Shown here in pieces: positions 3,619 to 59,100 of a DNA stretch of 64,000 nt. The translations under genes and the position numbers were made by a program. Every line of letters starts with the position of its first letter. Positions within the stretch are counted from its first letter, which is position 1. The notes below the pieces were generated by a model. It saw only the letters and a list, made by a program, of their open reading frames with translations. It was not told the DNA's origin and did no database searches. The stretch comes from Trachythela sp. YZ-2020. Taxonomy: Eukaryota; Cnidaria; Anthozoa; Malacalcyonacea; Clavulariidae. The stretch lies in assembly GCA_016169945.1 (NCBI GenBank), contig JADLSH010000190.1, positions 3,348,001 through 3,412,000 on the forward strand. The letters run 5' to 3'.

Positions 3619-4291
3619 TCGGATCAATTGAAGTTAACGACCCCCCTGCCCCAAGGGAGTCGTATACTTCAATGGCCATTGAAGTATACGACCCCCCAAA
3701 AAATAGCTTTTTATCAAGATGGCATCGAACTTGTTTTCGCCGGCTCATTCTCACCACATAAATTTGTCAAGTTACGCGGGCAACATGTCGCGTCTTACGT
3801 CTCCCATTGTCTTTATTAATAATTTCACCTTGCTTCTATTCCAGTACGTCTCGATATTCTGAGTATGCACACCCGTCACTGGATCAACGAAAAATAGCGA
3901 GTGGTAGACCGTTCGGTGCTCCAAGCCAGGGATATTGCCGACGCGATTGTATGCAGCCCACTCGTCAGAATACACTAGTGATCCCGGTCGAGTATAGATA
4001 TTTACAAGATGCAGTTTGCTACCAAAACACGGAGACAAAATTGCAAAACAAAACACCTCATATTATTGGTCGTGAAAGTCTTTGAATTTGTTCCGTGGTT
4101 AAAAAATCAATGAACTGAGATGTAGACAATAGAAGGGAAGTCATAAAAATTCCTTTGAAACAGACACAAACACAAAAATCCGTAAATTTAACGATATAAT
4201 ACAAGGGGGGTCGTATACTTGAATCCGAAGATTTGTTATTGAAGTATACGACCCCATTGGCGTAGGGGGTCGTTAACTTCAATTGATCCGA
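3619..4291. mobile_element. Merlin DNA transposon remnant
   Basis: A 673-bp element bounded by inverted repeats: the left end reads TCGGATCAATTGAAGTTAAC and the right end is its reverse complement, followed inward by runs of C on the left and G on the right. Subterminal repeats (GAAGTATACGACCCC) occur near both ends. It encodes a piece of an IS1595/ISXO2-type transposase, the hallmark of Merlin elements. At this length it cannot encode a full transposase, so it is an internally deleted, non-autonomous copy. No clear 8-9 bp target duplication was found. Confidence 0.8.
3772..4056 (-). pseudogene. Merlin (ISXO2-like) transposase, C-terminal fragment
   Basis: The minus-strand frame carries the second half of an ISXO2-like DDE domain: GSLVYSDEWAAY with the second catalytic Asp, then HSLFFVDPVTGVHTQNIE with the conserved HTQN(I/V)E block containing the last acidic residue, then a Trp-rich stretch. 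It ends at a stop right after DMLPA, short of the usual DEFxWR end of the family. The N-terminal half with the first catalytic Asp is missing. It lies wholly inside the Merlin inverted repeats and is certainly inactive. Confidence 0.8.
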
Positions 4292-12954: not shown

Positions 12955-13298
12955 AAATAGATACATATACATATACATACATATATTATTCAGCTCACTC
13001 CCCGTCGGGGCTTTTCAGTGACCGATTACATCAAGTGTTTCGCTTACCTATATTACGTACTTAGCCTACACTATATATTTTTACAACAATTGTGATATTA
13101 CTTTCCTAATCTATATATCCTAACCCACCCAGTCAGCTTTCCCTGTGGGAGGAAACCGGAGTGCCCGGAGAAAACCCACGACTTTCGGTAGAGCGCTGAC
13201 TTACTCTTTTCACACGAGTAGAGTCCCCAGGGTGAATCGAACCCACAACTCAGAGGTGAAAGGCGCTTGCTCTGACGACTGCGCCACCGAAACCTCTA
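12955..13298 (-). mobile_element. tRNA-derived SINE
   Basis: Read on the minus strand, the head is tRNA-like: TGGCGCAGTCGTCAGAGC matches an A box and GGTTCGATTC a B box. A body with CTCCGGGCACTCCGG follows, then a tail with the hairpin CCCCGACGGGG followed by CTTTTCA-type sequence reversed and a (TATACA)n-like end. The tail resembles LINE-shared SINE tails; a fragment of a similar tail lies at 50960-51030. Confidence 0.75.
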
Positions 13299-16756: not shown

Positions 16757-19700
16757 TTACTTCATGTGTTGCCAAAATCCAATTACATCCTGCATTGTTG
16801 GCCTTGTTTGCGGGTCTCCACTTGTACAATCTTCTACCAATTCTTTAATATCAGCTTTTGGAATTCTATTTATTTGATACTCTCTATCTTCAGGATCAGG
16901 TTGTTCACAAATGGACATCTCGCACACCAGTACGCCATAGCTGAAAACGTCGATCTGTGTTAAGAAAACAAGAATATTATATGACCTCTGAATTAATAAA
17001 CCGAAACGTGTACAGAATGAACTGCAGTTTCGATATTATATGCTATCGCGCGCATAATATTTGGTATATAGATTGACCGTTTTCAACGCAAATAAAGATC
17101 AGTTTCTTGCAGTCAAATGACACTTTTTTGTATCACTGCGATCAATAATGGCCCAATACGATCCGAGAAAACAAGAGTGTTCGAAAACACATTTTTCCAC
17201 CTTTGGGAATTAACGTCTTTCGGATTTTCGACAATTTTCCAAAATGATGGTTTCCTGTATTTGTGAAACGTTCAGCATTGCCAGTTTAGTGTGCAAACTT
17301 CCTGTTTTGTAAAATATTTTAACCACCAAATGTTGTTGTTAAATCGTGATTTTAATATTTTCTAAATTTACCAAGACTCGTTAAGTGGCCCTTGCATGGG
17401 TTACGCCATCTTATTAAAATTATTTAATTTGAGTCCGAAATTAGAATAATTTCAATAGACAGACAATAGCTTTGATCTCATCGTATCGTATTTGGCTATT
17501 TCTGATCGCAATTATACAAAAAGGTATCGTTTGAAAGCTAAAAGATTGATCTTGATTGGTATGAAAAAGTAAATATATAAACTAAATAGTAAACGCACAT
17601 TGGATTATCTGCTTGCCATATTCCTGCATTCCCCGTTTTAAAGCCAGCTTCCTTCAAGCTCAATCACAGTATATAGAGACGACCAGTAGGGCCACTCATT
17701 AGTTGAAATTTTGTGTGGCCGCTCATTACGCATTGGCAGCCAGTCAATTGCTTTTTCTGGCCAATAAGCAAGCTGGACTAACTTTCCTGGCCAGTAAACT
17801 GCATATTTTGCATAAAAAGCCGGCTACATGTTGCATCGCCGAGTGGCCCTACTGGTCGTCTCTATACTGTGGCTCAATGGCAATGCTGCTCGCCAAATCA
17901 AGAATATTTTTACATATATTAATACCTTCGGGTCTTGTTTAGCTTGAGTGGCTTCAGGTGCAGCGTAAAGTGCTGCTCCTGGATTCACTGTATTGCACAT
18001 TTGCATAAAATTAGCTGCCCCATAATCTGATATCTTCGCTCTTCTTACTCCACCATTTTCAATCCATAACAACACGTTGGCACTACTAATATCACGATGG
18101 ATTATTGGGCTTGGCTTTTTTGAATGAAGGTAGTTGAGGCCAAGTGCGACATCCAAGGATATTGATTTAACTTCCTGATAAACCAAACACGATTCGTCTT
18201 TTGCACATCGCTCGAGTAATGTACGCAAAGTCATATCCATCAGTTCTGTTACAATTAACAGACGATCTTGATCATTTTTCGTCGCGCATATAAACTGTAG
18301 TAAATTGGGATGCCGACATTTCGATGCGATATTAATTTCACGTTGGAGAATTCGTAAGTTATATGGAGATAAAATTATTTCGTGAAATTCTTTAACCGCT
18401 ACTTTAGTTCCGTGAAAGTCTCCCAAGTAAACAGCACCCCAAGCACCTCTTCCTAGCGCTTCATTTGAAACTACCACTGATCCACTTTCTGTGGTAAAGT
18501 TAGACAAGATATTTTGTTGAAATTGTTGAATTTCAATATTCAGGTCATCGTTTTCTTGTTGAAGTTTTTGCATCTCGCTATTCATGTTGTGGTTTTCTTC
18601 TCGAAGTTGCTGAATCTCGTTATTCTTGTTGCAGTTTTCTTGCCAAAGTTGCTGAATTTCGTTACTCATGTTAGTGTTTTCTTGTTGAAGTTGCTGAATT
18701 TCCTTGTACTTGTTGATGTTGTCTTGTTGAACTTGTTGAATTTCGCTCTTCGTGTTGGTATTTTCGTCTTGAAGTTGCTGAATATCGTTGTCCTTCTTGA
18801 TGTATTTTTGTTGAAGTTGCCGAATTTCGTTATTGTTGTTGGTGTTGGTTTTTCGAAGCTGTTGAATTTCGTTATTCTTGTTGATGTTTTCTTGACGTAG
18901 TCGCCGCATTTCGTTATTGTTGTTGGCGTTGTCTTTTCGAAGTTGTTTAATTTCGTTATTCTTGTTGATGTTTTCTTGCCGTAGTTGCTGCATTTCGCTG
19001 TTCTTGTTGGTGTTTTCTTGTTGAAGTTGCTGCATTTCGTTAGTCTTGTTGGTGTTTTCTTGTTGAAGTTGCTGAATGTCGTTATTCTTGTTGATGTTTT
19101 CATGTTGAAGTTGCCGAATTTCGTTATTTTTGTTGGTGTTTTCATGTTGAAGTTGCTGCATTTCGTAATTCTTGTTGATGATTCCTCGCCGAAGTTGTTG
19201 AATTTCGTCATCTTGGAATGTGTTTTCTTGTCGAAATTGCTGCAAATTAAACTCGATACCATAGGTATTATACATTTTCTCTTCTCGAAGTTCTTGCATT
19301 TCATAGACCACGCAATTCTTCTCTTCTTGAAGCTGCTGGATTTGGTTACTCATTGCATCCCTTTCTTGTTGAAGATTCTGCATTTTGCTATTCTTTTTGT
19401 TACTCTCTTCCAGAAGTTCTTGAATTTCATGTCTCATGATATTGATGTCTTTCTGAAGTTGCTGAGTTTCGTTGTTCAAGTGACTGTTTTCTTGTGAACG
19501 TTGCTGCGTCTTGTTAAAGATATCCAGTCCATGGGGCTGAGGCCATTTTTTATTGCTTATGTTATCTTCTTGAAGGATCTGATTAATTACTTTTAAGTTC
19601 ATGTTCTCTTTACAAATATCATAATTTTCTTTTTGAAGACGTTTATTTTCGGTAGTAAGATCAATATTCTCCTCTTTGAGCGTCTGGTTATCATTTTTCG

Positions 19701-22700
19701 GATTATCATTCATATCATCTGAATCAAGATTTCCACCGTCGTTTGTGTACTTTAGAAAAGACAGGATAAAACAAACTTAATTCAGAGTAAACTTGCCAAC
19801 CTCGTACCAAGGCTCTCTCCTCTACGCCCCTAGGCGAGGAGATACCCTGACTGGAGTTTGTCACGTGTCTCGCAGATTTTGGGTGCTAAATTCGAATTGT
19901 ACTGAAGGTGGGGTGGTCGAGAAGCGTGTTTATTGTCCTTCGAAAATTGCTACTTTCAGGCCTGCTCTGGGGCCTCAACTCGCCTTAAATCGTCTTAAAT
20001 CGCATAGCTTAAAAGTCCCAATTTTCCTTAAATCGCTTTAAATCACCTTAACTCGCCTTATTTCGCCTTAAATCGCCTTAACTCGCATTGCTTAAAGTTC
20101 CAAATTTTCCTTAAATCGCCTTAACTCGCATTATTTCGCCTTAAATCGCCTTACTGACTCGCATTATCTCGCGGCGAGTTAAGGCGAGTTACCGTCCCAG
20201 AGCAGGCCTACTTTCTGGTGTTACAATTTTGAAAAAAATATCAGACGTCTGAGGTAATAAATCTTGAGGAGATTAAGATTGAAGTACAAACTCTGAGATG
20301 TCTTTGAGTATAACTCTGCCATCTTGTCTTGAAAGCTGTGCTTTATAGTTTTTTCCAAGCTTAGTTTATTGTTATTTGTTTCAAAATAAGTGCAATATGA
20401 AGCTAAGATGATGTTTTAAACATTTATTCTAGTAAAACTAAAATATAGGTTGATATTTTCGAAAAATATCCTGAGGGATTATTCATACGCGAAAACAATT
20501 TCTACACGTTGAAAACCTGAAAATTTACCGCAAATTCGACCGCGGGAGTCTAGTCACGTGATCGCTAGCGGTTTGCGGTTTGAGGTATTCGTAAAAATAC
20601 GTCAATCTTAAGGTCTCTATTATTTAATAATATTACTTAATTTTGCTTCTTCTAATAGAACACATGGTATATTTGTACCTTGTAAAATAGAATATAGACA
20701 ACTCTAGCATGTTAATTCTCAACATTGAAATATGAGACCTCCATAAGCAGTGTATGCCACCTCGGACAAATTAAACATTTTATAAGTGCATTTAAATATA
20801 CATCAAGTGTCCAACTATTATCACTAGAGACATACATTCGAAATAAGACTTTAAAATGCCTATAAGAAACTGTGAATATTTTGTTAAGGCAGAGACTGCA
20901 AAGACAAAGTCATATAAATATATACTAACATAGCCAGGTCATATATATCTGCTATTGCAATTGAACTCACTGGTACAGTGTTAGTGTAAAGCCTGTAAGG
21001 CCTGCTCTAGGACGGTAACTCGCCGCGAGATAATGCGAGTTAAGGCGAGTTAAGGAAAAATTGGGACTTTTAAGCGATGCGATTTAAGGTGATTTAAGGC
21101 GAGTTGAGGTCCCAGAGCAGGCCTAACTATATCAATATTTTTGTAAAATTAATCTGAACTTATCCCCTCGCATATTTCTAGCGTGAGCCAAGTAAAAAAA
21201 AAGTACATAGTATATTGTATATAGTAGCTGATTAAGTCGTCTGACTTCGTCTTCTAGTTTACTTACCCGCTCTCTCGCATTCTTCAATTTCTTGCAATTT
21301 TCTGATTGAGGTTCCTTACTCCCCTTAGCATATTTTGAATCAACTTTTATAAGGTCTTCTGTGTGGTTGTGAGAAAAGAAAACAATACAAAATTGTTACG
21401 GATCAAACTTGTTCCAGATCGCCTGTCAATTTCACTAAAATTAGTTAAGGTTAGGGGACAGGTTGAAAAGGTCGGAAATCGTCATGTTTATATTTTTACA
21501 TGATTGTGTTCGTTAATTCAAAATCTATTTAATGGTAAAAACTGAACTTCTAGAAATTTTGAGAAATATCTGCGCGAAATGCAGGCATGTTTATGTTGGT
21601 AATGGCTTAGATTTGAAGATTCAATCTTAGGATTAAAGTACTCAATCTTTGGATTCAAGAATTCAATCTTTATACTAGTAGTCAAGGATTTATACATGTC
21701 TGTAATACTCGTCACGAGTCGTGAAATTAACTACACTAATTACAAATCAACACGATCCCCAAGGACGCGTTTGCGTTATTATATAATATTATACGGGTTA
21801 AATCACGTTATGGGTTAACTCATGCATGTTACCACCAGCTGCACTGACGAGCCGTTGAACGGCGAAACATGCATGTCTGCAGATTTGACTATATATATAT
21901 ATATGCTCCTTCACTTGTGTTGTTGAGCACTTTGTGATGTTAATTGGTGGCTATAAGCGATAATGCAAAAGCTCACTTCCCTTGTGGTCGTTTGAGCACT
22001 CTGGCCCAAAGACACTTCACGCATGTTTGGATGCACATGTGTCTGAGTATTGTACCACATGCGCTTGGTGAGAGCAAGAGTATGGTGTATAAATACGAAG
22101 TCAATCACATCTAGACTACATGCGTTACAAGCTGCACTGACGAGCCGTTGAACGGCGAAACGTGATGCATGTCTGCAGATTTGACTATATATATATATAT
22201 GCTCCTTCACTTGTGTTGTTGAGCACTCTGTGATGTTAATTGGTGGCTATAAGCGATAATGCAAAAGCTCACTTCCCTTGTGGTCGTTTGAGCACTCTGG
22301 CCCAAAGACACTTCACGCAGTTTGGATGCACATGTGTCTGAGTATTGTACCACATGCGCTTGGTGAGAGCAAATGAATGCAAAGCTCACTTCCCTTGTGG
22401 TCGTTTGAGCACTCTGGCTCCATGACACTTTGCGCATGTCTAGATGCGTTGATGTCACCGTGTTGTACCACATGCGCTTGGTGAGAGTAAGCTCATGTGT
22501 ATAAATACGGTTGACATCTCGTGTATAGACGTATACCAAGCTGCACTGACGAGGCGTTGGACGCCGAAACATGCATGTCTGCAGATTGTACTATATATAT
22601 ATATATATATATATAATATATGTAATGCCAAAGAGCGCTCGATATCATATAGACTATAGAGCAAATATAGCTTTCTTTTACCTCAAGGTATCCACTGCAG

Positions 22701-24246
22701 CCTGTTTCGCCATTCATATATGCCACTTGTTATTAATTAGGGTACTCCTACGTATACTCCGGCTTTAATTTATATTAATACCACAAAACGTCGTGAAAAC
22801 TTTCGCATTTTACCTTCAATTTTCTGTTCACTATTGATCCCTTGTTCGTCTTCTCTCTTCTCTGTACCTTTCTAAACGAATAACGCAGTAAACGTTACTT
22901 CCCAGATGCAAAACAACATGGACGACATGTCTATTTCAAAAACAGTTATCTGTGAATCTTAAAATTGGCTACGTACAATATAGCAGTTTAAGAATAATTG
23001 TCGTAATACTGTATAAAGTTGGATCTCATTCGATTACTTGATTCAGTTTTTTCTTAGATATACGATGATGACTTAAACTAGAAGTTACTATCGCAAGGAA
23101 AGCGCTGCCGAAGCCTGGCATCAACTTAACACCATGTGCTGTGCGTGACACCACATCGTGGCAAAAAATCACTTCAGAACTTGCGCAAAGGACAGCCATA
23201 CGATTACCCAATAATTCGACTATGTTGTACTGATGTTTAGGCTCTTTTAGCGGTATAAACCATTGCTAGCATTATAGTAGCAAAAGCCTAGAAAACCCAA
23301 CTGAATTTTGAGCACAATTTAGAAACATAATTATTCTAGATAGATTATGCGTGTTTACAACCAGTGCCAAGCTGATAGAATTACATTTGCCGCCTAGCGT
23401 ATAATTCAGAAAATATTTGGGCTATTTGCGCAATATCAATTCAGAAATTGCTTGGATTGCTTATAGAGACTCGACTATGCAGTACAGATATTTATGCTAG
23501 TTTTAGCGGTATGAAGCTTATTGAAAATGTGATATTTTATGATATATTCAAAGTACAATTTGGCGTCTCACTTTGAGGTTCACTTCATTCAGTTCTCGGT
23601 ATTCATGAAACAATTTGTGTAAAATCTAGACAACTTCGTACAAATTTTTATTTTTACGCTCTTTTGGCTGTATAAATTAAGAGGCATAGCTACAGTACTT
23701 GTCTTGTAAATTAATATATCAACGAATATAAAGTCATGCTATATAAACACAGCGCTTAATAGCTTTAAATACTCCTTCCCTTGCCGAAAAAAGCATTCGG
23801 AAACAAGATAAAATATGTGATTAAACTATCATGAATTCGTTTACAATAGTCCATCAACCGGTTTTCAAAAATGTCTTCGGTTGTTCAAATCAAAACACGT
23901 GGTCATAGAGCGAATTACTGTATATATATGAATGAAAGTTTGTAATATTTTGAGCACATGGATAAAAGGAAACATGCGTGCGCATGCACTTACAATATAT
24001 TGTTCACTCCCCCTAATTTTAAAAATGACTTCAAGCTCGATCGACCTTTTGCCCCGGAATTGGACAGACATCTGCACCGACGCGAAGTCGACTTCTCGAC
24101 TATACATAGATCCGCGAGAAAGACTGGGTCGAGTAAACTCTGGAGAAACCTTAGCACGTACATACCTCCATCCAGTCCTGAAATCGTTTTTTCAAACCAG
24201 AAACCCTGGCAGGTTCATTCAAACTATCATCTTCTGGCGAAGCCAT
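16757..24246 (-). CDS. Gene A: coiled-coil TKL-like protein kinase (750 aa, 5 exons)
   Basis: Exons on the minus strand: 24246-24166, 22871-22814, 21358-21267, 19749-17926 and 16954-16757. Every junction has GT-AG ends and phases match, giving 2253 nt with one stop. Residues 1-27 start MASPEDDS; about 110-490 are a coiled coil with some 15 tandem 14-residue units such as EIQQLQQENTNMSN; 508-750 are a kinase with glycine loop [13 protein letters not shown] lysine (about 530), HRD (628-630), NVLLW, DYG in place of DFG (652-654), APE, and a final-exon DVFSYGVLVCEM. All catalytic residues are present, so it is probably active in the cytoplasm; no signal peptide or membrane helix is seen. Unlike B and C it has an extra intron (19750-21266). 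Intron 2 holds the hammerhead array. TKL group membership is inferred from the kinase sequence; substrate unknown. Confidence 0.82.
17665..17871. mobile_element. MITE in last intron of gene A
   Basis: Terminal inverted repeats of about 30 bp start CACAGTATATAGAGACGACC and end in the matching GGTCGTCTCTATACTGTG. GCTCAAT is duplicated on both sides (658-664 and 872-878). The matching intron of gene B (about 30515-30535) shows the empty site, which confirms the insertion. Confidence 0.85.
18520..19500 (-). repeat. 42-bp coding tandem repeats of gene A (coiled coil)
   Basis: Units of 42 bp encode 14 residues (two heptads), consensus about EIQQLQQENTNKNN. One heptad has Ile and Leu at the core positions and the next has Asn/Lys. 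Units differ at several positions, so this is an old but still regular array. Opposite-strand frames read Leu/Phe/Val-rich and are artefacts of the repeat. Confidence 0.85.
19959..20208. mobile_element. MITE with GGCCTGCTCTGG ends (first of a pair in gene A intron 3)
   Basis: The ends GGCCTGCTCTGG and CCCAGAGCAGGCC are inverted. The flanks TACTTTCA and TACTTTCT are a near-perfect 8-bp duplication, as in hAT elements. The body is repeated CGCCTTAAATCGCCTTAACT. Confidence 0.75.
20999..21123. mobile_element. Second, shorter MITE of the GGCCTGCTCTGG family
   Basis: Same inverted ends and GGCGAGTTAAGG body as the element at 19959-20208, in opposite orientation, 144 bp 3' (genomically left) of the end of gene A exon 3. 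No clear target duplication. Confidence 0.7.
21839..21882 (+). ncRNA. Hammerhead ribozyme 1 (type I)
   Basis: Stem I CTGCA/TGCAG (839-843 with 878-882); core box CTGACGA (844-850); stem II GCCGT/ACGGC with loop TGA (851-863); GAAA (864-867); stem III ACA/TGT around TGCA; cleavage triplet GTC with the cut after 21877. All conserved core nucleotides are present. Confidence 0.85.
22132..22178 (+). ncRNA. Hammerhead ribozyme 2 (type I)
   Basis: Same stem I, core and stem II as copy 1. Three extra bases lengthen stem III to ACGTG/CATGT with loop ATG (five pairs including one G-U), so the insertion keeps the fold. The cut is predicted after 22173. Confidence 0.85.
22541..22584 (+). ncRNA. Hammerhead ribozyme 3 (type I)
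   Basis: Same core. Stem II is GGCGT/ACGCC with loop TGG: one base pair is swapped from C-G to G-C compared with copies 1 and 2, a compensatory change that supports selection on the fold. The cut is predicted after 22579. Confidence 0.85.
22591..22615. repeat. (TA)n microsatellite
   Basis: A TA run directly downstream of the third ribozyme; shorter TA runs follow the other two. Insertion into or capture of TA repeats is often seen with hammerhead-bearing retroelements. Confidence 0.8.
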
Positions 24247-29702: not shown

Positions 29703-32700
29703 TTACGTCATGTGTTGCCAAAACCCAATTACATCTTGCATTGCCGGCCTTGTTCGCGGGTCTTTTCTTGTACAAGCTTGAACCAAATTTTTTATATGAG
29801 CGTTTGGAATTCTATTTATTTGATCTCTTCTTTTGACTTGATCAAGATTTGGTAGCTCACAAATAGATATCTCGCATACCAGTAAGCCATAGCTAAAAAC
29901 GTCGATCTGTGTAAAAAAACAAGATTATCATGTGACATTTATAGCACTCGAGCGTTGATTGGTCGAGAAGCGTGTTTTTATAACTGCATAGAAACACGGG
30001 AAATTTGGCGGCTTCAAATTTAAAAACGTAAACAAAACCATTTTAATACGCGCTGTAACCGAAAGAATGCACTGTGATTACAGATTTTTTGCAAGGTGAT
30101 CACAAATTTTTGCACTGTAATTACAAATGTTTGCACTATACTCTTTGGAATTAACTGCATTGGAAACTGCCAATCAAATTCGGCATGTTATTACGAGTTA
30201 TAGTAGACGCGTGTCTTGAGAACGTACTTACAATTCCTAGATCACTTTTTCCGTCCAATTATGGGCTTTGTTGCATGTGCTTTCAAATTCCTGGTGTGCA
30301 ATGGCTATCTTTAAAACAGGGAATGAGGTATTCGGGAATCTAGGAATGTTGTAAAAGACATGGTGATTGACTTTCTGAGAATTGGACTTAAAGTACAACA
30401 TGCAATAACCTAATTGATGTTTGTATAATAACCACCATGAATTATATATATTGGACTTCTGATTTCGCACTTTATAGAGTGGGTTACGGATTCCCCGTTT
30501 TAAAGCCAGCCTCCAGCAAGCTCATTGCTGCCCGCCAAATAAAGAACATTTTTAAATGTATTCATACCTTTGGGTCATGTTGAGCTCGCCTGGCTTCAGG
30601 TGCGGCGTAAAGCGCTGCTCCTGGATTTGGTGTATTACACACTTGCATGAAATTAGCTGAACCAAAATCTGATATTTTCGCTCTTCTTACTGCATCATTT
30701 TCAATCCATAACAATACGTTGGCACTGCTGACATCACGATGGATTATTGGGCTTGGTTTTTTTGCATGAAGGTAGTTTAGGCCAAGAGCAACATCTAAGG
30801 AAATTGATTTAATTTCCTGATAAACCAACGGCGATCTTTCTCTTGCACGTTGCTCAAGTAATGTACGCAAAGCCATATCCATCAGTTCTGTTACAATTAA
30901 CAAACGATCTTGATCATTTTTCGTCGCGCATATAAACTGTAACAAGTTCGGATGCCGACATTGCGATGCGATCTCTATTTCACGTTGGAGAATGTGCAAG
31001 TTATATGGAGATATAATTATTTCGTGAAATTCTTTAACCGCTACTTTAGTTCCATAAAAGTCTCCCTTGTAAACAGCACCCCAAGCGCCTCTTCCTAGTA
31101 CTTCATTGGAAACTACTACTGATCCACTTTCTTTAATCAAGCTGGGCATGTTGTCTTCTCGAAGTTGCGAAATTTCGTTATTCTTGTTGGCATTTTCTTG
31201 TCGAAGTTCTTGTATTTCATCGTTCATGTCATCGTTTTCTTGTCGAAGTTCTTGTATTGCATTGCTCATGTCATCGTTTTCTTCCTGAAGATGCTGAATT
31301 TCATTGCTCATGATATTTTGGTTTTCTTGATATTGTCGTATCTCGTTATTCTTTTTGGTGTTCTCCTCTCGAAGTAGCTGACTTTCGTTGTCCATCTGAC
31401 CTTCTTTTTCTCGAAGTCGCAGATTGTCGATGTGCGTCGCATTTTTCTCTTGCAGAAGTCGCTGATATTCCTTTTCCTTCTCATTTGTCTCTTGTCGAAG
31501 TTGCTGAATTTGGTTGTCAGTCACTTCTTTCTCTTGTCTTTGTTGCTGATTTTCGTTTTCCATCTGACGTTTCTCTTGTTGTAGTTGCCGAATCTTGTTG
31601 TTCTTGTCAATATTGTCTTGCTGAAGTTTCTGATTTTCGTTTTCCAAGTTACTGTTCTCTCTTCGAAGTTGGTGCGTCTTCTCACGGAACTCTGGTCCAT
31701 GGAGCTGCAAGTCTACAATTGACCTTATGTCCGCTAGTTTATCATCTTGAAGAAGCTGATCAATTGCTCTCAAGCAGTTGTTCTCTTTCTTTATTTCATC
31801 ATTTTCCTCTTGAAGGCGTTGCGTTTCGGTAGTCAGATCAATATTCTCTTCTTGAAAGCCCTGTGTATCCTTTTTTAGATTACCATTATCTTTCTTTACC
31901 CGCTGCTGTATTTCCTGATTAAGTCGCCTGACTTCGTCCTCTGATTGAGGTTCCTTACTCCACTTTGCATATTTTGAATCAAATTTTATAAGGTCTTCTG
32001 TGCGGTTGTGAGAAAAGAAAACAATACAAAATTATTACGGATTAAACCTATTCCAGATCGCCTATCAATTTCACTAAAACAGGTTGAAAAGGTCGGAAAT
32101 CGTGATGTTTATATTTTTACATGATTGTGTTCGTTAATTATATTCAAAATCTATATAATGGTATAAATTTTGACAAATATCTGCGCGAAATACAGGCATG
32201 TTTATGTTGGTATGTTGGCTTAGATTTAAATATTCAATCTTAGGATTGAAGTACTCAATCTTTAGATTCAATAATTCAATCTTTATAGTACTCAAGGATT
32301 CATACATGTGTATAATACTCGTCACGAGTCGTGAAATTAACTACACTTTACAAATCAACACGATCCCCAAGGACGCGTTTGCGTTATTATATATATACGG
32401 GTTAAATCACGTTTTGGGTTAAGTCATGTTACCACCAGCTGTACCTACAGTATAAGGGTTATCATGAGGTGCAAATGTATGATAGTTCAATTTTGATTGT
32501 ACATATATATGAGCGTGTTTTGGTTCACGAAATACCAAAGAGTGCTCGATATCATATAGATAGAGCACAGATGGCGACCCACTTGATGATCGCTTATTGC
32601 GTGAAACAGGCTGTATGTATATATATATAGGCCTATATATGTCGATATTTTTGTAAGTGTTTGTTTCACTCTCTGTGTTCTATTAGAAAATTATCATTCG

Positions 32701-35700
32701 ATTAATTCCGTGATTTAGGATAGAATGAATACGATCTAACTGGCTCACACCGTTTTCCCACAGTAGCATGGTTGTAGACTTAGAGTGCACAAGCCGAAGC
32801 GTGCAAAATATAGTATGGTATTTAGTGTTTGTTTCACATAATAATACAACCCCAATATACTCACCAAATATATGATATGTCCTTTCTCTTACCAGCTCTA
32901 CATTAATACAATGGCTTTGCATCAATATAGTCCAGGCAGGGCCGGATTAACCATATGGCAGAAGCGGCATATGCCACGGGTCCCGCGCCTTCAAGGGGCC
33001 CCGCGCTCACACTTTATTAAGAAAAAGTGACAGACCAAGTTTAGTTTAGTGAATGTTATAATATCAGATACGTTACTGTCATTACATCTTTCAAATTAAG
33101 ATTGCAATTCAACCATATATACTTAAAACGGGTTAAATTTTTCAGGTTATAGAGCAGCCTGAGGGCCCCGCGTGAAAAAAATGCCATGGGCCACGCGCTG
33201 CCTTAATCCGCCCCTGAGTCCAGGCCTTGAGACCCTGGATGGCGGTTTAAAAGGAGAAAGGACAACAATAAGATGTTTTTATTTTGTTTGAATAAAAACA
33301 TCTTATTGTTGTCCTTTCTCCTTTTAAACCGCCATCCAGGGTCTCAAGGCCTGGACTATATTGATGCAAAGCCATTGTATTAATGTAGAGCTGCTGAGAG
33401 AAAGGACATATCATATATTTTGAGGTAAGCGAAAATATATGTAATATATACAAACCGCACAAGAGGTCTTTATCAGATTTAAAACATCGAGGCGCAGCCG
33501 AGTGCTTTAGATCTGATAAAGGCCGAACTGTAAGGTTTGTATATGACTTCTAAAATGACTCGTTTTGTACGCTCACTGGCGTTGGAATTTTGAAGATTGA
33601 TGTTATCTACGCTGTAAAAATTGAAGGAGAAAATTTGAGCAAGTCTATATCAAATATATAGATCCGCTACGGGTCATGAGTTTCCTTTGTATTTTGCTTA
33701 TGAATAATTAATGAATTTTAGAAATATATATATATAGTATGAGGAATAAAGTGTGTAGGACGCGAACTTCAAGAAGATCTTTGAGTTGTTATAATTTATT
33801 ATTTACATGCAGTTCAGACGTTTCGCCCGTTCGGGCTTCCTCAGCGTAAAACATGCAATTAAAGTACCTAACGAGGAAGCCCGAACAGGCGAAACGTCTT
33901 GACTGTAAATAATAAAGGTATACTATTAGGCTTGGTATAAGGCATGTGTTTTCCACTGGTCAAATTGAGGTTTACGTCAAGAAAATCGACAGATTTCTTG
34001 TTGGCTTCGATAGTGATTTTGAGGCCGTGCTCTTGGAAAATTGCGCACAGGTCTTTCTTGATCATTTCAATCTGGCGTGATGATTTGTTGCTAATTCCGA
34101 GACCGTCATCTCTGTAAAGACCAAAATTGTGCCCGTGTTTCTTGGTTATTAGATCAAGTAGAAAAGAACCGACTAATTCACAAGATTCTGCGCCGTCATA
34201 GCTGCCCATAACCTTAAGTTTAGAAACGTCAACTGCAGTTTCCAGAACCAATTATATACTGATGCACGAGATATAAAGAAATCGAACGATCTCCTTATTC
34301 CCGCTGACAAAACAACCAACGTTTACAGGATGGAGAAAACTTCTTACAACGAACTTTTACATAAGAACGTGACAAAAACCTATAAGAAAGTCAACGCTAC
34401 AGCTATTGCCTCTATTGAAAATGAAACCAAGTCCATAGTAGAACAACTGAACCTTGATGATCGAGTCAATGTTACTGCTCAAAGAGTAGCCTTCATAACC
34501 TTGAAAGACCTGCACAAGTCAAACTTTTCCAACAACCCGACACGCCGCCTTATTAACCCTGCCAAATCTGAACTTGGAAAAATTAGCAAGCAAATCCTCG
34601 ACCGAGTTAACAAGAAAGTCACTGCCGCTAAAATTTGCCAATTAATACTGAAATCCTTATTGTTTTCTTTCAATGTCCAAATATATTTCGAAAGTTCCGT
34701 GTCGTTTGCATGCTTTTTGTGCTGAAAAGATTTAGTGTGGTTGGCCAATCGCTCTTTGAATGTGGTTGCAGTCATGCCAATGTACTAATTTTTGATCGTG
34801 TTTGTGTTGCTTACTGTGACTGTTTCTTGGCGTATGCCTGACGATGGAGTGACGTATTTACCGTACAACTAGCGTATGATTGTCGTCTTGCCATCGTATC
34901 CACAGCTTATATCCCGCGTTTTGAGAAAGTGTATATATAGGCTCCCATTTTTAGCTCTTCGTATCTTCTTGAACATCCGACGATAGAGGATGGAGTTAGC
35001 TCTTCTCCAACACCAGTATGATTTGATAGATTTTGCAATTCACCACATCCATGATAACAGAATCAGAAGAAAGAGGAGGAGAAGAAGAAGAATGCGTGCA
35101 CGTGAAGTCTGGGTGAGACCATGGATCGGTAGACGAAGGCAGTTTGGCATCTACGACCAGCTTCTGGTGGAGCTCCGAAACGAGGACCAACGATCCTTCA
35201 AGAACTTCATGCGGATGCCCCCGAGATGTTCGATGAGCTGCTAGCCAGAGTGAGTCCCAGGATCACCAAACAACACATCTGGTATAGGGAGCCCCTGGAG
35301 ACTGGCCTGAAGCTCGCACTGACTTTGCGTCATCTTGCCTCTGGAAACAAGTATTCAACCATGCACTACGGATGGAGGGTCCCCCGCAACACCCAGTCAC
35401 TCATCGTCATGGAGGTCTGCCAAGCCATCATCGACGAGTACATGCTCGATGTGCTGACCTGCCCCACCACTCCAGAGGGATGGCGTGCCATATCAGAGAA
35501 GTTCCTCCAGAGGTGGAACTTTCCTCATACATGTGGTGCACTAGATGGGAAGTACATTGCTGGCAAGTGTCCTCCAAAGAGTTGTTCCCAATACTACAAC
35601 TACAAAGGATTCTACTCTGTTGTACTCATGGACTTTGTAGACGCGGATTACAAGTTCATCCGGGCAGACCTCGGTGGTACAGGGTCATCATCAGACGCAG

Positions 35701-38700
35701 ATCTACAATAACTCTGAAATCAAGGAACTAGCTGAAGACGGCACCATCGGATTCCCTGCCCCTGATGCTCTACCCAGTGACTACCAGGATGTACCCTACT
35801 TCTTCATCGGCGATGATGCCTTCGCCCTCCGAGAGACCATGATGAAGCCATACAGCCTCCGGGATCTGGACAATGAAGAGAGGATATTTAACTACAGGCT
35901 TTCCCGCGCCAGGAGGGTGGTTGAAAATGCCTTCGGTATCCTGGCGAACCGCTTCCAGGTTCTACTGACTACCATGCAGCATCACCCCTCCACTGTCAAG
36001 CTCATCGTGAAAGCCTGCGTTGTCCTTCACAATCTGATGAGGTTACGGTACCCTGGACTCCAAAACCAGCATCTCGACCGTGCACAGAACATGAACCGTG
36101 ACTTCATCCCTGGAGCATGGAGACAGGACAGGAACTTGCAGGACACACATACAGTTGCTGGCAGAAACACATCCACCAACATGGAAAGAAACTGAGGAAC
36201 CTCCTGAAACACTGGGCCAACTCAGGTGCAGGTGCAGTTCCATGGCAAGACAGGATGATTTAAAGGACCTCAACACATCACCACCACCAGGAAAGATGTA
36301 GTGACTGTTGTTGTAGTTACTGTTGTTGTCGTGATTGTTGTTGTCGTGACTGTTGTATCACCCTAGAGACTGTGTTTTTGTAATGTGATAACGATGTACC
36401 ATTATTATCATGTGCAATTATTAATGAGCCGTTGTTGATTTGAATAAAAGTTTTCCTAACTTTATGCTGTGGTGTTTATCATATTTTTTTGTTTGTAATT
36501 GAAATTGACATTGTCAACTACACTACAATGAATTGATGTATTTATAACCCGCTACTTTAACACAACACTATACTTTGCAACAGATTTAAAATCAGTTGTA
36601 ATTTATAAGTACCCCTGACCCCTAGCCCCTACAATAACAAACTGCACTTGATAGTAGACTTTACACTCTACACAATGGTACAGTCTAAAATCAAGTGTAA
36701 AGTGCAGTTTAATATTCTAGGGGCCCTGGATCAGGGGTACTTATCAATCACATATGATTTTATGTATTATAAAAATATGACAAACACCACAAGAAAGTTT
36801 AAAAAAACTTTTATTCATATGATAAACTGATCATTAATAATGCCACATGGTACTAATGGTAATAATGGTACATAGTAATCACATTCAAAATACATAGTCA
36901 CTACAACAACAGTCACTAAAGAGTGAATACTTCTTTCCTGTTTGTGGTGGCGTGTTGAGTTCCACATCTTGAGAACCGAGATCAGGAGAAGATCCCATGA
37001 TGTCTCCAAATTCTGAGAGGCTGGATAGAGTGGATTTGTTCGGGAGGCTGTGCTCAAAGGCTAAGCCTGGACTGTGCTGCGTTGACCTGGGCTGTTTCCT
37101 CTGTACCTGTGCAGCAGACCACAAGGAGTCACAAACTGGGGCGGGGATGGGGTGCGCTGTTGCTGAGTTGTTGTTGAGGAGGCATCATGCTTATGTGCAT
37201 GCTGGAAGGGTTGCTTGTGGTACTGCTCCATGTACTCCATAGACTGTGAACCCCACACTGATGATGCTGGAGGCATGTTTATCCACATGTGGGGAGGTGG
37301 CTGATACTGATCGGAGATGAATGATGCTGAGGAGCCGAATGAACAGAGGGGAGGTGCTGAAATGGGGCGCGGTGGGTGAGGTTGTTGAGAGTGGCTTGCT
37401 TGCTGGGTTGCTTGGATGGGGGGAGCTTCCATGGCACTTGGAATATCATCATCGCTTCCCTCATCCATCAAGTCAGACAGCAACCTGTTGATGGTGGACC
37501 TTGTCTTCTTGTACTTGGGCTTGGACAAGGTTAGCAGGCTGTCTTTAACGTAGTTGGCAAAGGCTGTTCGGGCTGTGATGGGCTGCTTCTGGGATTCGGA
37601 GAGGTCCTTGAGGATGGTGCCGGACTCAGCAACTCTCTTCTGTAGGGACTCGAAGAGGTCGCTGTCTGGGTCCCGAGGTCGCTTGCGTGAGGATGGAGGG
37701 GTGGATAAGGAGTTAGGGGTGAGCTCATCCAGGCCATTCTGCATGTCAGCGCAGGCAGTCTCGGCAGCATCAAGGTCTCCTCTGTGCCGTTGGATGGTTG
37801 CCTTCACCTGCAAAGACAAATAATAACATCATAAGTACCACAAATGCAAAAATGAATGCAAGAAGTATTCCAAATTGTATACTTACATCCTGCATGGGCT
37901 CAGGTCGGTGGCGAATGACCTTCTTCAGGAAGACGAACTTGGTGATGATCCACTGCTCTCTCTCTCAGTCAGGTTTGGAGCACTGTCGCCGCTCTTCTTC
38001 TTGTCAAGGCGTGTGTGGGTGTCACGCAACGACCTGAACCAGCCCTTGAGGGTTTCGGCTGTCTTCTCCATCAGCTGGGCTTGGTCTTCCCAGATCTTGT
38101 CCTTCTTGTTCTACCGCCTGTACTCTGTCATCTTGATATTCCACAGCACAGGGTTGTCCAGAATGAACTCCAGCATCAACTCCTCCTCTGCGATGCTGAG
38201 GTTGCAGGGGTTCTTCTTGGCCCTTTTCTTCTTCTTCCTCCCCTTGTCATCAGCCAGGCGAGAGGAGGTAGAGACATCAATCGACACAGATGATGACACA
38301 GATGATTCACGGGAACGTCCACGAGGAGGAGTTGGGGACCTTGAGGGCTCAGGAACATGTCGCTGATCATTAGGAGGTGTCTCAAGAATACCAGCAGGTG
38401 TATCCAGTATGTCATCAGGTGGTTCAGGTATATCAGCAGGTACATCAACAGGTGGTTCAGGTATATCAGCAGGTACATCAACAGGTGGATCATCAGGTTT
38501 GGACGAGGATTGGGTCTTCTTCCCTTTTCCACGGCCACGGGTAGACGATGTCTTCTTCTTGTTAGTCATGTTGATAGCTGGACGTCTACAGCAATAATGC
38601 TGCAATGTTGATTGATGAACGACCGCCGCTTATATAGGCATAAAGTGTACATGTAACGTGATAGCGGTACTCTGGACATGTGCATTTCAAACGATACTCG

Positions 38701-46355: not shown

Positions 46356-49300
46356 TTACGTCATGTGTTGCCAAAATCCAATTACATCTTGCATTGCTGG
46401 CCTTGTTCGCGGGTCTTTTCTTGTACAAGCTTGAACCAAATTTTTTATATGAGCGTTTGGAATTCTATTTATTTGATCTCTTCTTTTGACTTGATCAAGA
46501 TTTGGTAGCTCACAAATAGATATCTCGCATACCAGTAAGCCATAGCTAAAAACGTCGATCTGTGTAAAAAAACAAGATTATCATGTGACATTTATAGCAC
46601 TCGAGCGTTGATTGGTCGAGAAGCGTGTTTTTATAACTGCATAGAAACACGGGAAATTTGGCGGCTTCAAATTTTAAAAACAATTTTAATACGCGCTGTA
46701 ACCGACAAAATGCACTGTGATTACAGATTTTTTGCATGGTGATCACAAATTTTTGCACTGTAATTACAAATGTTTGCATCATACTCTTTGGAATTAACTG
46801 CATTGGAAACTGCCAATCAAATTCGGCATGTTATTACGAGTTATAGTAGACGCGTGTCTTGAGAACCTACTTACAATTCCTAGAAAATCACTTTTTCCGT
46901 CCAATTACGGGCTTTGTTGCATGTGCTTTCAAATTCCTGGTGTGCAATGGCTATATTTAAAACAGGGAATGAGGTATTCGGGAATCTAGGAATGTTGTAA
47001 AAGACATGGTGATTGACTTTCTGAGAATTGGACTTAAAGTTACAACATGCAATAACCTAATTGATGTTTGTATAATAACCACCATGAATTATATATATTG
47101 GACTTCTGATTTCGCACTTTATATAGTGGGTTACGGATTCCCCGTTTTAAAGCCAGCCTCCTGCAAGCTCATTGCTGCCCGCCAAATCAAGAACATTTTT
47201 AAATGTATTCATACCTTTGGGTCATGTTGAGCTCGCCTGGCTTCAGGTGCGGCGTAAAGCGCCGCTCCTGGATTTGGTGTATTGCACACTTGCATGAAAT
47301 TAGCTGAACCAAAATCTGATATTTTCGCTCTTCTTACTGCACCATTTTCAATCCATAACAATACGTTGGCACTGCTGACATCACGATGGATTATTGGGCT
47401 TGGTTTTTTTGCATGAAGATAATTTAGGCCAAGAGCAACATCTGAGGAAATTGATTTAACTTCCTGATGACTCAACTGCGAATTTTTTCTTGCACGTTGC
47501 TCGAGTAATGTACGCAAAGCCATATCCATCAGTTCTGTTACAATTAACAAACGATCTTGATCATTTTTCGTTGCGCATATAAACTGTAATAAGTTCGGAT
47601 GCCGACATTGCGATGCGATCTCTATTTCACGTTCGAGAATTTGCAAGTTATATGGAGATATAATTATTTCGTGAAATTCTTTAACCGCTACTTTAGTTCC
47701 AAAAAAGTCTCCCTTGTAAACAGCGCCCCAAGCACCACTCCCTAGAACTTCATTTGAAACTACTATTGATCTACTTTCTGTAATGGTATTTTCTTGAAGT
47801 GGTTGACGTTCTTGCTGAAGTTGCTGAATTTCGTTATTGTTTTCTTCACGGAGTCGCTCAATTTCGTTGTCCTTGTGGTTGTTGTCTTCTTGAAGTTGCT
47901 GAATTTCGTTGTTCTTGTTGATGTTGTCTTCTTGAAGTTGCTGAATTTCGTTGTTCTTGTTGTTGTTGTTGTCTTCCTGAAGTTGCTGAATTTCGTTGTT
48001 CTTGTTGACGTTGTCTTGTTTCACTTGTTGTATTTCCTCGTTCTTGTTGTTGTTGTCTTCTCGAAGTTGCTGAATTTCGTTGTTCTTGTTGACGTTGTCT
48101 TGTTTCACTTGTTGTATTTCCTCATTCTTGTTGTTGTTGTCTTCTCGAAGTTGCTGAATTTCCTTGTTCTTGTTGACGTTGTCTTGTTTCACTTGTTGTA
48201 TTTCGTTGTTCTTATTGTTGTTGTCATGTTCAAGTTGCTGAATTTTGTTATTCATGTTAGTGTTTTCTTGTCGAAGTTGCTGAATTTCGTCATTCTTGTT
48301 AGTGTTTTCTTGTCGAAGTTCCTGAATTTCGCTATTCGTGTTGGTGTTTTCTTGTCGAAGTTGCTGATTTTCATTATTCTTGTTAGTGTTTTCTTCTTGA
48401 AGTTGCTGAATTTCGTTATTCTTGTTAGTGTTTTCTTGTCGAAGTTGCTGAATTTTTTTATTCTTGTTGGTGTTTTTTTGTTGAAGTTTCTGAATTTCGT
48501 CATTCTTGTTGTTGTTTTTTTGTTGAAGTTGCTGAATTTCGTTATTCATGTTAGTGTTTTCTTGTTGAAGTTGTTGAATATCATTGTTCTTCCTGTTGTT
48601 TTCTTGTCGAAGTTCATCAATTTCATTCCTCATTTGGTTTAGAAGGCGTTCTATCTTGGTAGTCAAGTCATTATTCTTTTCTTGAAGGCTCTGTTTATCT
48701 TTTTTAAGATCGCCATTCTCTTCCTTCACCAGCTGTATTTCCTGATTAAGTCGCCTAACTTCGTCATCTAGCTTAATCACCCGCTCTCTCGCATTCTTCA
48801 ATTTCTCGCAATTTTTTGATTGAAGTTCCTTACCCCGCTCCTCACATTCTACATCCAGTTTGATAAGGTCTTCTGTGTGGTTGTGAGAAAAGAAAACAAT
48901 GCAAAGTTATTGCGGATTGAACCTATTGCAGATCGCCTATCAATTTCAATATTAATGATTTGAAGAATTACGGACAGGTTGAAAAGGTCCGAAATCGTTA
49001 TCTATCTTTTTACATGACTGTGTTCTTTCTCCGAAATCTATTGCAAGGTAAAAAGCTAAGAAAATACAAAACAATGGACACTCCGAAAACGGTTAACATT
49101 TTTATTCTACGTCTAATGACGTTACTGAAATAAAAACGGTTGTCTGTACAAGATCAAATGACATATGATACAAGTTCTTTAAAGACTTTACATCCGTACA
49201 TGCAGTACCCTATTTAATCTACCACATACACTATTTAATCTCAACAACTTTTACCTGCAGTGTTTTGTTCACCATTGATCCCTTGTTCGTCATTGTTCTC

Positions 49301-56100: not shown

Positions 56101-59100
56101 TAGTGTGAACTTGCACGAACTCTGTATTAATTCGGTGATTTTAAAAACATAACTACAAAAGACAATTCATTCTCTAGGGGAAACTAGCTCAGGAAAAAGC
56201 TGTTTGATAAACTTGCTACTTGGTGTAGATCTGTTACCCTATTCAGCTCTCAGCACAACCTCAACAATATGCGAAATAAAGTATGGAAAACATCCAAAAC
56301 TTGTGGCGCACTTCAAAAATGATGGCGACAAACGAGGGCCATCTCTGCTACCAAAATCTGTGAGTTTGAAAGAACCTGACGTTTGTGGCAAGAGCTACCG
56401 AGATCAAATAGCTCCTTATGTACACAACAAAAAGAACAGGGAAGATGGATCAATCTATGAAAAAGTCGAGATACTCTGGCCACACGAATTGCTGCAGGTG
56501 AGACGACTAACAGTCGTTATGTTCGTTTATATTTTATTATTTATATTAATATGAATTATCGTGGTTTGAATACGGATGACGGTAGCTATCCAAAATAATT
56601 TCGACCTGTAGGCACAAAAATGGTTTCAAAGGGTAGCACGGGTGGCGGAAGCGGTTAGCGCGCTGCCTCTTACCACTGAGTTGAGCCTGTTTCACAACAG
56701 GTCGAGGTCACTGTTGGTACTCGCATGAGATCGGCAGTGTGCTCAAATAACTCATGTAAGTTGAGATTCTCTCCTGTGCTTCGAGGGTTTTCCCCGGGTA
56801 CTCCGGTTTCCTCCCTCTAATACTAACCCTTAGGAACTAACAATGGGGCCACAGTAATTGGCTGACGCTGTTGTGGACTCCCTGCCATTGAGGCGAAGTT
56901 GAATAATAAAAAAAATAAAAAAAATACACAACCAAAACAAAGAAAAATAGGCGTGGAAAGTTTGAATGCCCATCCACTCACGTTTCAACCACAACCGTTT
57001 AAGCACCAATCGAAATTTTTCCTGAAAATTCTAACTGTAGGTGAAACCGTGGTTGTAACAAAGAATTTGAGGTGTGCGAAACTATAATATCCGCTCTATG
57101 GCGAAGCTATATCGAACGCTCTCCAATATTTCACGTGAACTAAAACATTCGTGCGATCCCTGGACAAGTACGATCATGTACCGTTTTCATTATGAGTGAT
57201 CTGAAGACGCAACGTTGGTGAAGATACGTGTGTGGAAATCTCTCGAATATGCAATAATTAAATCCTATTATTGCATCTTTACATATCACATTGCTATTCT
57301 AGGTTGGTGTTGTGATTATCGACAGTCCAGGTGTTGGTGAATCCGAGAAAATGGATCAAATTTTGATGAGTTACCTGCCAAACGCTTTTGCTTTTATCTA
57401 TGTCATTAACAGTTCAAATGCTGGAGGCATTCAAAAAGACAGGGTGGGTATTACAGAATTATCTTCATTTCTGATATTGCAAAGATCAACGAAATATTCG
57501 TTCTCTCTAGTGGGATTATATTGTACTGTTTAGTTTATTATGTTTACCACTCTAAACAAGGCGGGAAGCCTGAACAGGATTTTCAACCCAGTACGTAGTT
57601 GCCAAAGTTTCTAATGGTTAATTTTTAGTGAGGTAGTTTTTAGTAACCGGAGTACCCAGAAAAAATACCTCGAAGCACAGGAGAGAACCAACCAATCTCA
57701 ACTTACATGAGTTAATCAAGCACAGAGACGTTACCCAACCTGAGTAAATCCCTGCCCTCGACCTGCTGTATAGCCGGCTAACTCAGAGGCAAGGGTCAGA
57801 GAGCTAACCGCATCTTTCACCCGTGCTTCCCTATGAAGGAGAGATTATTCCATGGGGAAAATTTTCCTTTATCTTTTTCAGTTGGTAAGAATCTTGGACA
57901 AGGTTCGCAGTCTTGAATCTGTAGATGAAATGAATTCTAATCATTTGGCCGAGTGCGCGCTATTTGTTGCCAATAAATGGGACCAGATTGATGAATATGA
58001 ACGGCCTGAGGTTAAACAACACATTGTTAAACAGTTGATGCAGTATTGGCCAGATGGAAATCCACTTCAGCAAACGATATGTATCTCAACGAAGGATGCT
58101 CTTGCAAAGCGAAGGCGTGGCGAAGTCACTGAAGAATATGATGTTTTACTGGAAGGAATAAAGTCCATGATTTTGAAAGCAATCAACAGCAGATTGAACA
58201 ACCATTGGGCGTAAGTGTACATACCTATACAGACATACAGGCATTGACACGCGCGATCAGGGGTGCGCCCAGGGGGGTTGGAAAACTAATCGGGTTTCTA
58301 ATGATTAGATTTCTAAGGTCTCTCAGAAACGGTATTTCGTTAATTCTGAGATGCATTCCAACTGAGGAACAGTGGCGCCGGCAAGGGGGGGGGGCGAGTG
58401 GGAGCGAGGGGGCGAGGGCGAGGGGCGAGGGGGCGAGGGGCGAGGGGGCGAGGGGCGAGGGGGCGAGGGGGCGAGGGGGCGAGGGGGCGGCCGGACCCCT
58501 ACAATTTGTTTGCCCCCCCAAAAATAAATCCTGGCGCCGCCACTGCTGAGGAAGAGCTAGCCACAGCCATGAAATAGCCACACTTCCCAAGTTTTGAAAC
58601 GTCAAGGTATTTTGAAATATATTTATTGATTACTATCGCAAGAAAAGTTGCAAAGAATAGTGTTCAAAAATAGTGTACTGCTTCGCGGGATAAACAAGTT
58701 TTAAATCCAAAATAGTAATGCCTTACAAGTTACAAGTAAGCTGGTGCTTCCTACGTAGGTTTTATGTCGAGAGAATCAGCAGTTGATTTGACAAAGAATG
58801 GCTGGGTGTTAATTCGGGTAGCTTACTGATTCATGTGACATGGGTAGTGTTTTGATTAACATATTTATACAGCACATTGTAAATAGATGACTAAATATAT
58901 ATTTTCCATTTTGGAATATTTTTTGTTTTAGGTGGGTAAATCTAGTTTTGGATCGAATAATATTCAGGATCGATGGATTCAATCTATCTATGTTACAAGA
59001 TCGTGAAACCCTTATCAAGCGAATGAATGCACTTCAGATGCAGATTTTGGTGCTGCAAGATGCACGTCAGCAGGAAATAGCTGAACTGGAAGCAATGTTT

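Follow-up and report, generated by a model that had tools for sequence, protein, structure and literature searches.

Animal retrozymes, as defined by Cervera and de la Pena (2020; PMC7229834) in Acropora, Mytilus, axolotl and other species, lack long terminal repeats (LTRs), consist of tandem repeats of 150-450 nucleotides (nt) with type I hammerhead ribozymes, and occur in thousands of copies alongside hammerhead-bearing Penelope-like elements (PLEs). In the model presented there, a primed circle is copied by the enzyme of a PLE or of a long interspersed nuclear element (LINE). PLEs are named there as a strong candidate, and we found no junction data in that paper's sections on retrozyme definition and model. 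Here we describe an array of this kind in 64,000 nt of DNA from Trachythela sp. YZ-2020 (contig JADLSH010000190.1, positions 3,348,001 to 3,412,000; hereafter the window), together with its relatives in the same genome. The retrozyme class itself is already known. What is new is that most of the copies examined end about 12 nt past the predicted ribozyme cut in (TA)n tracts, and that a co-resident PLE shares this type of ending.

Several described systems resemble this one in part. Relative to the retrozymes covered in the sections cited above, the present family differs in that its copy ends are mapped to (TA)n next to the ribozyme joint, two of its subfamilies (F1 and F2) form a chimera, a co-resident PLE terminates in tracts of this kind as well, and any RNA circles are predictions from DNA. 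Plant LTR retrozymes, as outlined in the same paper, are likewise non-autonomous and linked to hammerhead-made circles, but they have type III hammerheads, LTRs and a Gypsy-type helper. The hammerhead satellites of newts and salamanders outlined there share tandem repeats (~330 nt) and type I hammerheads, but have a weaker stem III and a ribozyme that acts as a dimer, whereas stem III here has three pairs. For the Poseidon PLE of Anolis, the portions of Frangieh et al. (2024; PMC11167929) used here report that the enzyme starts internally, downstream of the hammerhead, at AT-rich DNA, which accounts for the PLE tail. Our system has in common with it a hammerhead near the element end, an internal start of reverse transcription downstream, two start sites with an optional tail, AT-rich targets and a GIY-YIG nuclease. 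In contrast, the window retrozyme is non-coding, and the start sites seen here resemble their (TA)n target in sequence; in the anole system, synthesis begins at an AC-rich loop that lacks homology to the cut DNA. By analogy, the retrozyme ends look like the PLE internal-start reaction run on the RNA of a parasite. No earlier statement of TA priming was found among the titles and abstract openings listed in searches of openly licensed papers, which is a weak negative.

Three complete type I hammerheads lie in tandem on the plus strand of the window, at 21839..21882, 22132..22178 and 22541..22584 (hammerheads 1 to 3), with predicted cuts after 21877, 22173 and 22579, that is, 296 and 406 nt apart. 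Each CTGACGA core (21844-21850, 22137-22143 and 22546-22552) is accompanied by a CTGCA/TGCAG stem I (21839-21843 and 21878-21882 in hammerhead 1), GAAA (21864-21867 in hammerhead 1) and GTC at the predicted cut. Stem II is GCCG/CGGC in hammerheads 1 and 2 and GGCG/CGCC in hammerhead 3, and stem III is ACA/TGT around TGCA, with three extra nt in stem-loop III of hammerhead 2. Judged from their sequences, the motifs conform to the type I definition (CUGANGA, GAAA, an NUH cut site, three helices and an open stem I), and all three are complete, as the first-pass annotation of this DNA had proposed. A stem-aware search for which all three stems are required (the strict finder), applied to both strands of the window, returned exactly these three sites; 30 resamples of the same sequence under an order-1 Markov model gave no site. 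A loose core pattern matched six times (shuffle mean 0.51, largest 4, for 100 shuffles), and the additional matches at 13272 (+), 33821 (-) and 55621 (-) were rejected by the strict finder. In the covariance-model check suggested earlier, an Rfam scan of the window found no family at or above its gathering score. Below this level, RF00008 (Hammerhead_3), which is the type III hammerhead model with a gathering score of 48.5, overlapped one site at 28.8 bits (E 0.051) and another at 26.6 bits (E 0.22), leaving the third without a match. In our view, the scores fall short of gathering because stem III is short. The hammerhead did not stand out when the isolated motifs were folded by minimum free energy (z -0.85, -1.34 and -0.53).

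A search of the window's own genome (578 Mb, 396 contigs), which had likewise been recommended, uncovered a dispersed multicopy family. With the 296-nt query, scoring 40 of 956 candidates gave 84 matches. A hammerhead pattern that ignores stem II is present at 3,808 sites (1,890 + 1,918; reversed control 0), a few of the listed sites having one broken pair. The 3' junction GTCTGCAGATTTGAC occurs 2,011 + 1,960 times (control 0), and 729 + 674 junctions continue into a next unit when counted with a shorter prefix and TA of at most 14 nt, which leaves roughly 2,570 terminal junctions, a split that is approximate. Among the loci read, which are the 30 best-scoring matches and their neighbourhoods, units are usually 281 nt long, copies are mostly 98-99% identical, and an array may hold anything from a single unit to more than 10. 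Dispersal in many copies, units of 150-450 nt, type I hammerheads and low divergence among these loci identify the array as a non-autonomous metazoan non-LTR retrozyme, in agreement with its earlier designation as a candidate. Neither the array nor two exact patterns matched a plasmid collection or viral contigs.

When the unit is numbered from the first base after the predicted ribozyme cut (position 1), the copies examined are seen to cross this cut: they do not end at 281/1, but around positions 12-19, in TA. A census of 26 fetched stretches plus the window, covering 30 loci (L024 was omitted because it overlaps L023), contained 93 instances of TGCAGATTTGAC, of which 43 continue in tandem and 50 are ends. 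Among the ends, 42 have an uninterrupted TA run of length at least 6, and 40 one of at least 10, against a background in which positions opening such runs make up 0.53% and 0.09% of the window, respectively, and 0.58% and 0.12% of the fetched regions outside elements. A separate classification placed 46 of 59 ends in TA (15 of 16 for selected hits and 31 of 43 for by-catch). Sixty starts could be scored, and these include 21 that are full-length in TA, two that are full-length without TA, and 37 that are truncated, with a TA-rich left flank in 19 of the last group. The insertions lie within (TA)n, so that target-site duplications, which in animal retrozymes exceed 4 bp when present, would be indistinguishable from the repeat. 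At array-internal joints the TA tract is 7 nt long in 36 of 43 cases, and the others measure 15 (three, two of them in the window), 17, 21, 33 and 47 nt. Because internal joints mostly carry only 7 nt of TA, the long terminal TA belongs to the target DNA. Furthermore, because the last 12 nt of the copies lie beyond the ribozyme cut, the corresponding joint in the template was either sealed or never cut. We read these ends as a record of the reaction, with a TA start, a crossed ribozyme joint and a TA stop, in a family that numbers in the thousands and whose copies read here are mostly 98-99% alike. Such junction evidence makes both the helper and the template directly testable within one genome.

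Copies of a co-resident PLE terminate within (TA)n tracts at either of two internal UAUA sites, and the 3' untranslated region of this element carries a hammerhead-like motif. Its protein exhibits a GIY-YIG-like nuclease fold, which identifies a GIY-YIG endonuclease, and a YRDDGLAI motif that may be that of a telomerase-like reverse transcriptase. Pfam reports no reverse-transcriptase domain in this protein, which has many homologues, some with PF26215. In the loci read, the PLE and the retrozyme have the same layout, wherein a TATA-like box is followed by a hammerhead or hammerhead-like motif, the cut, a UAUA start 12 to 93 nt downstream, and (TA)n ends. On these sequence grounds, the co-resident PLE is a likely copying engine of the retrozymes. 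As a separate observation, retrozymes at two loci (L016 and L026) are located between two inverted PLE 3' ends, with flanks that mirror each other.

The units within an array also resemble each other more than they resemble units elsewhere. Unit divergence is 0.69% within arrays versus 1.44% between them (82 units, 15 arrays; 0 of 2,000 permutations), and 0.83% versus 1.49% when the long array is left out. Neighbouring internal TA tracts are equal in length in 23 of 26 cases, a result reached by 4 of 5,000 shuffles. In L035 (one array), L046, L047 and L031, a variant is common to every unit, and other arrays are mixed. Uniformity of this sort is expected if an array is copied from one circle, but also if it arises by local amplification; the data lean towards single-circle templates and do not prove them. 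The one array with more than 10 units (L023/L024) has mixed variants, unlike several of the short arrays.

We consider it probable that the family is a metazoan non-LTR retrozyme copied by a PLE enzyme from (TA)n onto sealed RNA, with the helper and the circular template as the conjectural parts of this model. The array would be transcribed, the hammerheads would cut the RNA into units, and a host ligase would close these units into circles. The PLE-encoded protein would cut a (TA)n microsatellite by means of its GIY-YIG domain, and the freed TA end would pair with the UAUA tract, which sits a short way past the healed ribozyme joint. Reverse transcription could then circle the template once or several times, so that single units, tandem arrays or copies truncated at the 5' end would come to lie between TA tracts. 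Whether metazoan retrozymes in general use TA-microsatellite-primed rolling-circle reverse transcription by a Penelope-like enzyme, at one unit per turn, is a question on which we are evenly balanced. If true, each insertion would leave TA on both sides, so that the target would regrow and insertions could pile up tail to tail, and a hammerhead beside the priming tract would be a shared signature for the parasite's borrowing of PLE machinery. At L006 and L035 (a retrozyme cluster), copies flank TA tracts in both head-to-head and tail-to-tail orientation, an arrangement that looks like priming on the two DNA strands of a single TA cut.

A number of observations weigh against this model. The strict TA rule does not hold for 8 of the 50 retrozyme ends in the census and 13 of the 59 in the separate classification, although by our reading of the flanks some of these can be put down to F2 copies, internal rearrangements or a single change in the TA. 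For PLE ends, exceptions to the rule number 6 of 19 and 3 of 25, and 8 of 64 PLE 3' copies end elsewhere. Stem II of the hammerhead-like motif in the PLE is weak, and a U-U pair stands at its base. Identity within arrays is imperfect, with several arrays mixed and L023/L024 the most so, and the loci read were taken by score and are a non-random sample. In the window, the left edge of the array lacks TA, and meets the flank at a short match, AGCTG(C/T)AC, that is also present beside the paralogous gene B (below). The proposed pairing is unlike the published anole start at a site that is non-homologous to the cut DNA. Finally, cleavage, circles and transcription are predictions from DNA, and an uncut linear concatemer would give identical junctions. 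This last point leads to an alternative that we regard as possible but unlikely, namely that the template is an uncut linear multimer transcript with no circle, and that ribozyme cleavage accompanies transposition without being needed for it, as the anole PLE assay showed for that element. Junctions that cross the cut arise from a circle or a multimer alike, some arrays have mixed units, and anole PLE hammerhead mutants kept their insertion activity in vitro (PMC11167929). However, the hammerhead pattern is still matched at thousands of sites, some short arrays have shared variants, and both divergence and TA-tract length are more uniform within arrays than chance would give.

Copying by a PLE, as favoured above, also has competitors. 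We are more doubtful that the helper is some other enzyme, such as one of LINE type, and that PLE and retrozyme merely share AT-rich landing sites. PLEs alone were looked at closely, and further reverse-transcriptase-like open reading frames (ORFs) seem, by eye, to be present in the fetched regions; nonetheless, landing sites are not all that the two elements share, since the TATA-like box, the hammerhead or hammerhead-like motif, the UAUA start and the (TA)n ends are common to both. Ordinary satellite DNA that grew by unequal crossing-over or via extrachromosomal circles, with the hammerhead as a passenger, would fit the array of more than 10 units and the homogeneity within arrays, but we judge it very improbable given the dispersed monomers, short arrays, 5' truncation with a recurrent TA 3' end, inverted pairs and chimera of two subfamilies. 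An endogenised viroid-like or delta-like RNA agent is suggested by a hammerhead-bearing RNA of viroid size, yet is scarcely credible: the strict finder detected no opposite-strand hammerhead in the array, genomic copies number in the thousands, and the predicted fold of the 296-nt unit does not surpass those of its shuffles (z 0.02), which offers no support for a compact circle. The 406-nt stretch folds slightly better than shuffles (z -1.38, with 11 of 100 equally good), and we draw no support from this value.

Alignment to the two subfamilies clarifies the architecture of the window array. The F1 segment (21834..22372, plus strand) opens with the tail of a first unit, continues through a complete one of 296 nt and takes in the larger part of a third; its unit 1 and unit 2 parts match the F1 unit at 96%, versus 85-86% for an F2 copy. 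The F2 segment (22376..22621, plus strand) is 5'-truncated and ends in the terminal (TA)n tract, and its positions 22376-22582 match an F2 copy (L020:1857-2138) at 98.5% and F1 at 87%. With the joint at 22373-22375, the 406-nt interval is by alignment an F1/F2 chimera and no second unit size. Thus, the spacing reported earlier for tandem units of 296 and 406 nt stands, but the 406-nt unit does not, and an origin of this interval by internal duplication was dropped. The joint could reflect a template switch during copying or insertions side by side; we prefer the template switch because the F1 part has no TA end there, in which case the enzyme probably started on F2 RNA and then switched to F1 RNA. 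Hammerheads 1 and 2 are of F1 type by unit alignment, the copy with hammerhead 1 being 5'-truncated at about unit position 238, and hammerhead 3 is of F2 type by subfamily alignment. The F2 stem II differs from that of F1 by a compensatory exchange at the second pair, and one listed genomic hammerhead site has a mixed form.

Two internal TA tracts, at 21890..21904 and 22186..22200 (plus strand), are equal in length at 15 nt, where the loci read usually have 7 nt. The array has its 3' end, and the proposed priming site, in the terminal (TA)n tract at 22592..22621 (plus strand). The TATA-like sequence TATAAATA (unit position 203) may serve as an internal promoter box; it is located upstream of hammerhead 2 (22088..22095) and of hammerhead 3 (22500..22507), both on the plus strand, and AAGCTGCAC is at unit position 240. 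With the box at 22088, hammerheads 2 and 3 could release a 406-nt chimeric RNA. The only stop-to-stop frame of at least 120 amino acids across the window array encodes 127 amino acids on the opposite strand, consistent with the earlier claim that the array has no protein gene, and the repeats within 21600-22800 are the tandem units plus one 21-nt repeat. This copy therefore lacks both an ORF of its own and LTRs.

The array is on the plus strand and the neighbouring kinase gene A on the minus strand, and a splice-acceptor-like stretch together with an alignment to the paralogous gene B suggests that the array likely resides in an intron. Because of this antisense orientation, gene A intron transcripts would carry the wrong strand, and therefore any circle would need its own promoter or antisense transcription. 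The right edge lies inside (TA)n, across which the array faces a decayed Penelope-like 3' tail (22629..22686, minus strand; 80% over positions 83-139 of YX). Both array edges have counterparts at the matching site beside gene B (32437..32502), namely AGCTG(T/C)AC and GATTGTAC(AT)n, which are separated there by ~50 unrelated nt. A decayed hammerhead considered at this site was rejected, since the resemblance of the 51 nt tested to the hammerhead 3 core is within the range of shuffles (324 of 1,000). By alignment and this shuffle test, the gene B region has neither array nor hammerhead, as the first-pass annotation had stated for the array.

Penelope-like reverse-transcriptase fragments are present in the window between 33.9 and 34.8 kb, including one at 33868..34251 (minus strand) whose motif we take to be that of a Penelope-like reverse transcriptase. 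Beside it, in an imperfect inverted repeat, is a hammerhead-like core with almost no stem III (33821..33844, minus strand) that fits the loose pattern and fails the strict finder. The nearby Penelope-like fragments noted earlier are upheld.

The best named relatives of the window kinase protein are from Paramuricea and Dendronephthya, both octocorals. Three similar ORFs on the minus strand (17824-19776, 30562-32031 and 47209-48906) combine a coiled coil and a kinase with 42-nt (14-residue) repeats, and Pfam confirmed the kinase domain for the first of these only. Beside gene A, CCTTAAATCG-rich inverted repeats (19958-20210 and 20998-21125) flank nearly 0.8 kb. A long, near-perfect hairpin at 33222-33352 gives sub-threshold matches to microRNA models on both strands, and resembles a foldback element or a miniature inverted-repeat transposable element. 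A DDE_Tnp_4 transposase fragment and adjacent ORFs are located at 35133-36195 (+) and 37061-38629 (-), where the one ORF scanned had no Pfam match, and the region at 56153-62032 (+) carries a piece of a dynamin-like GTPase with a kinase-domain piece downstream.
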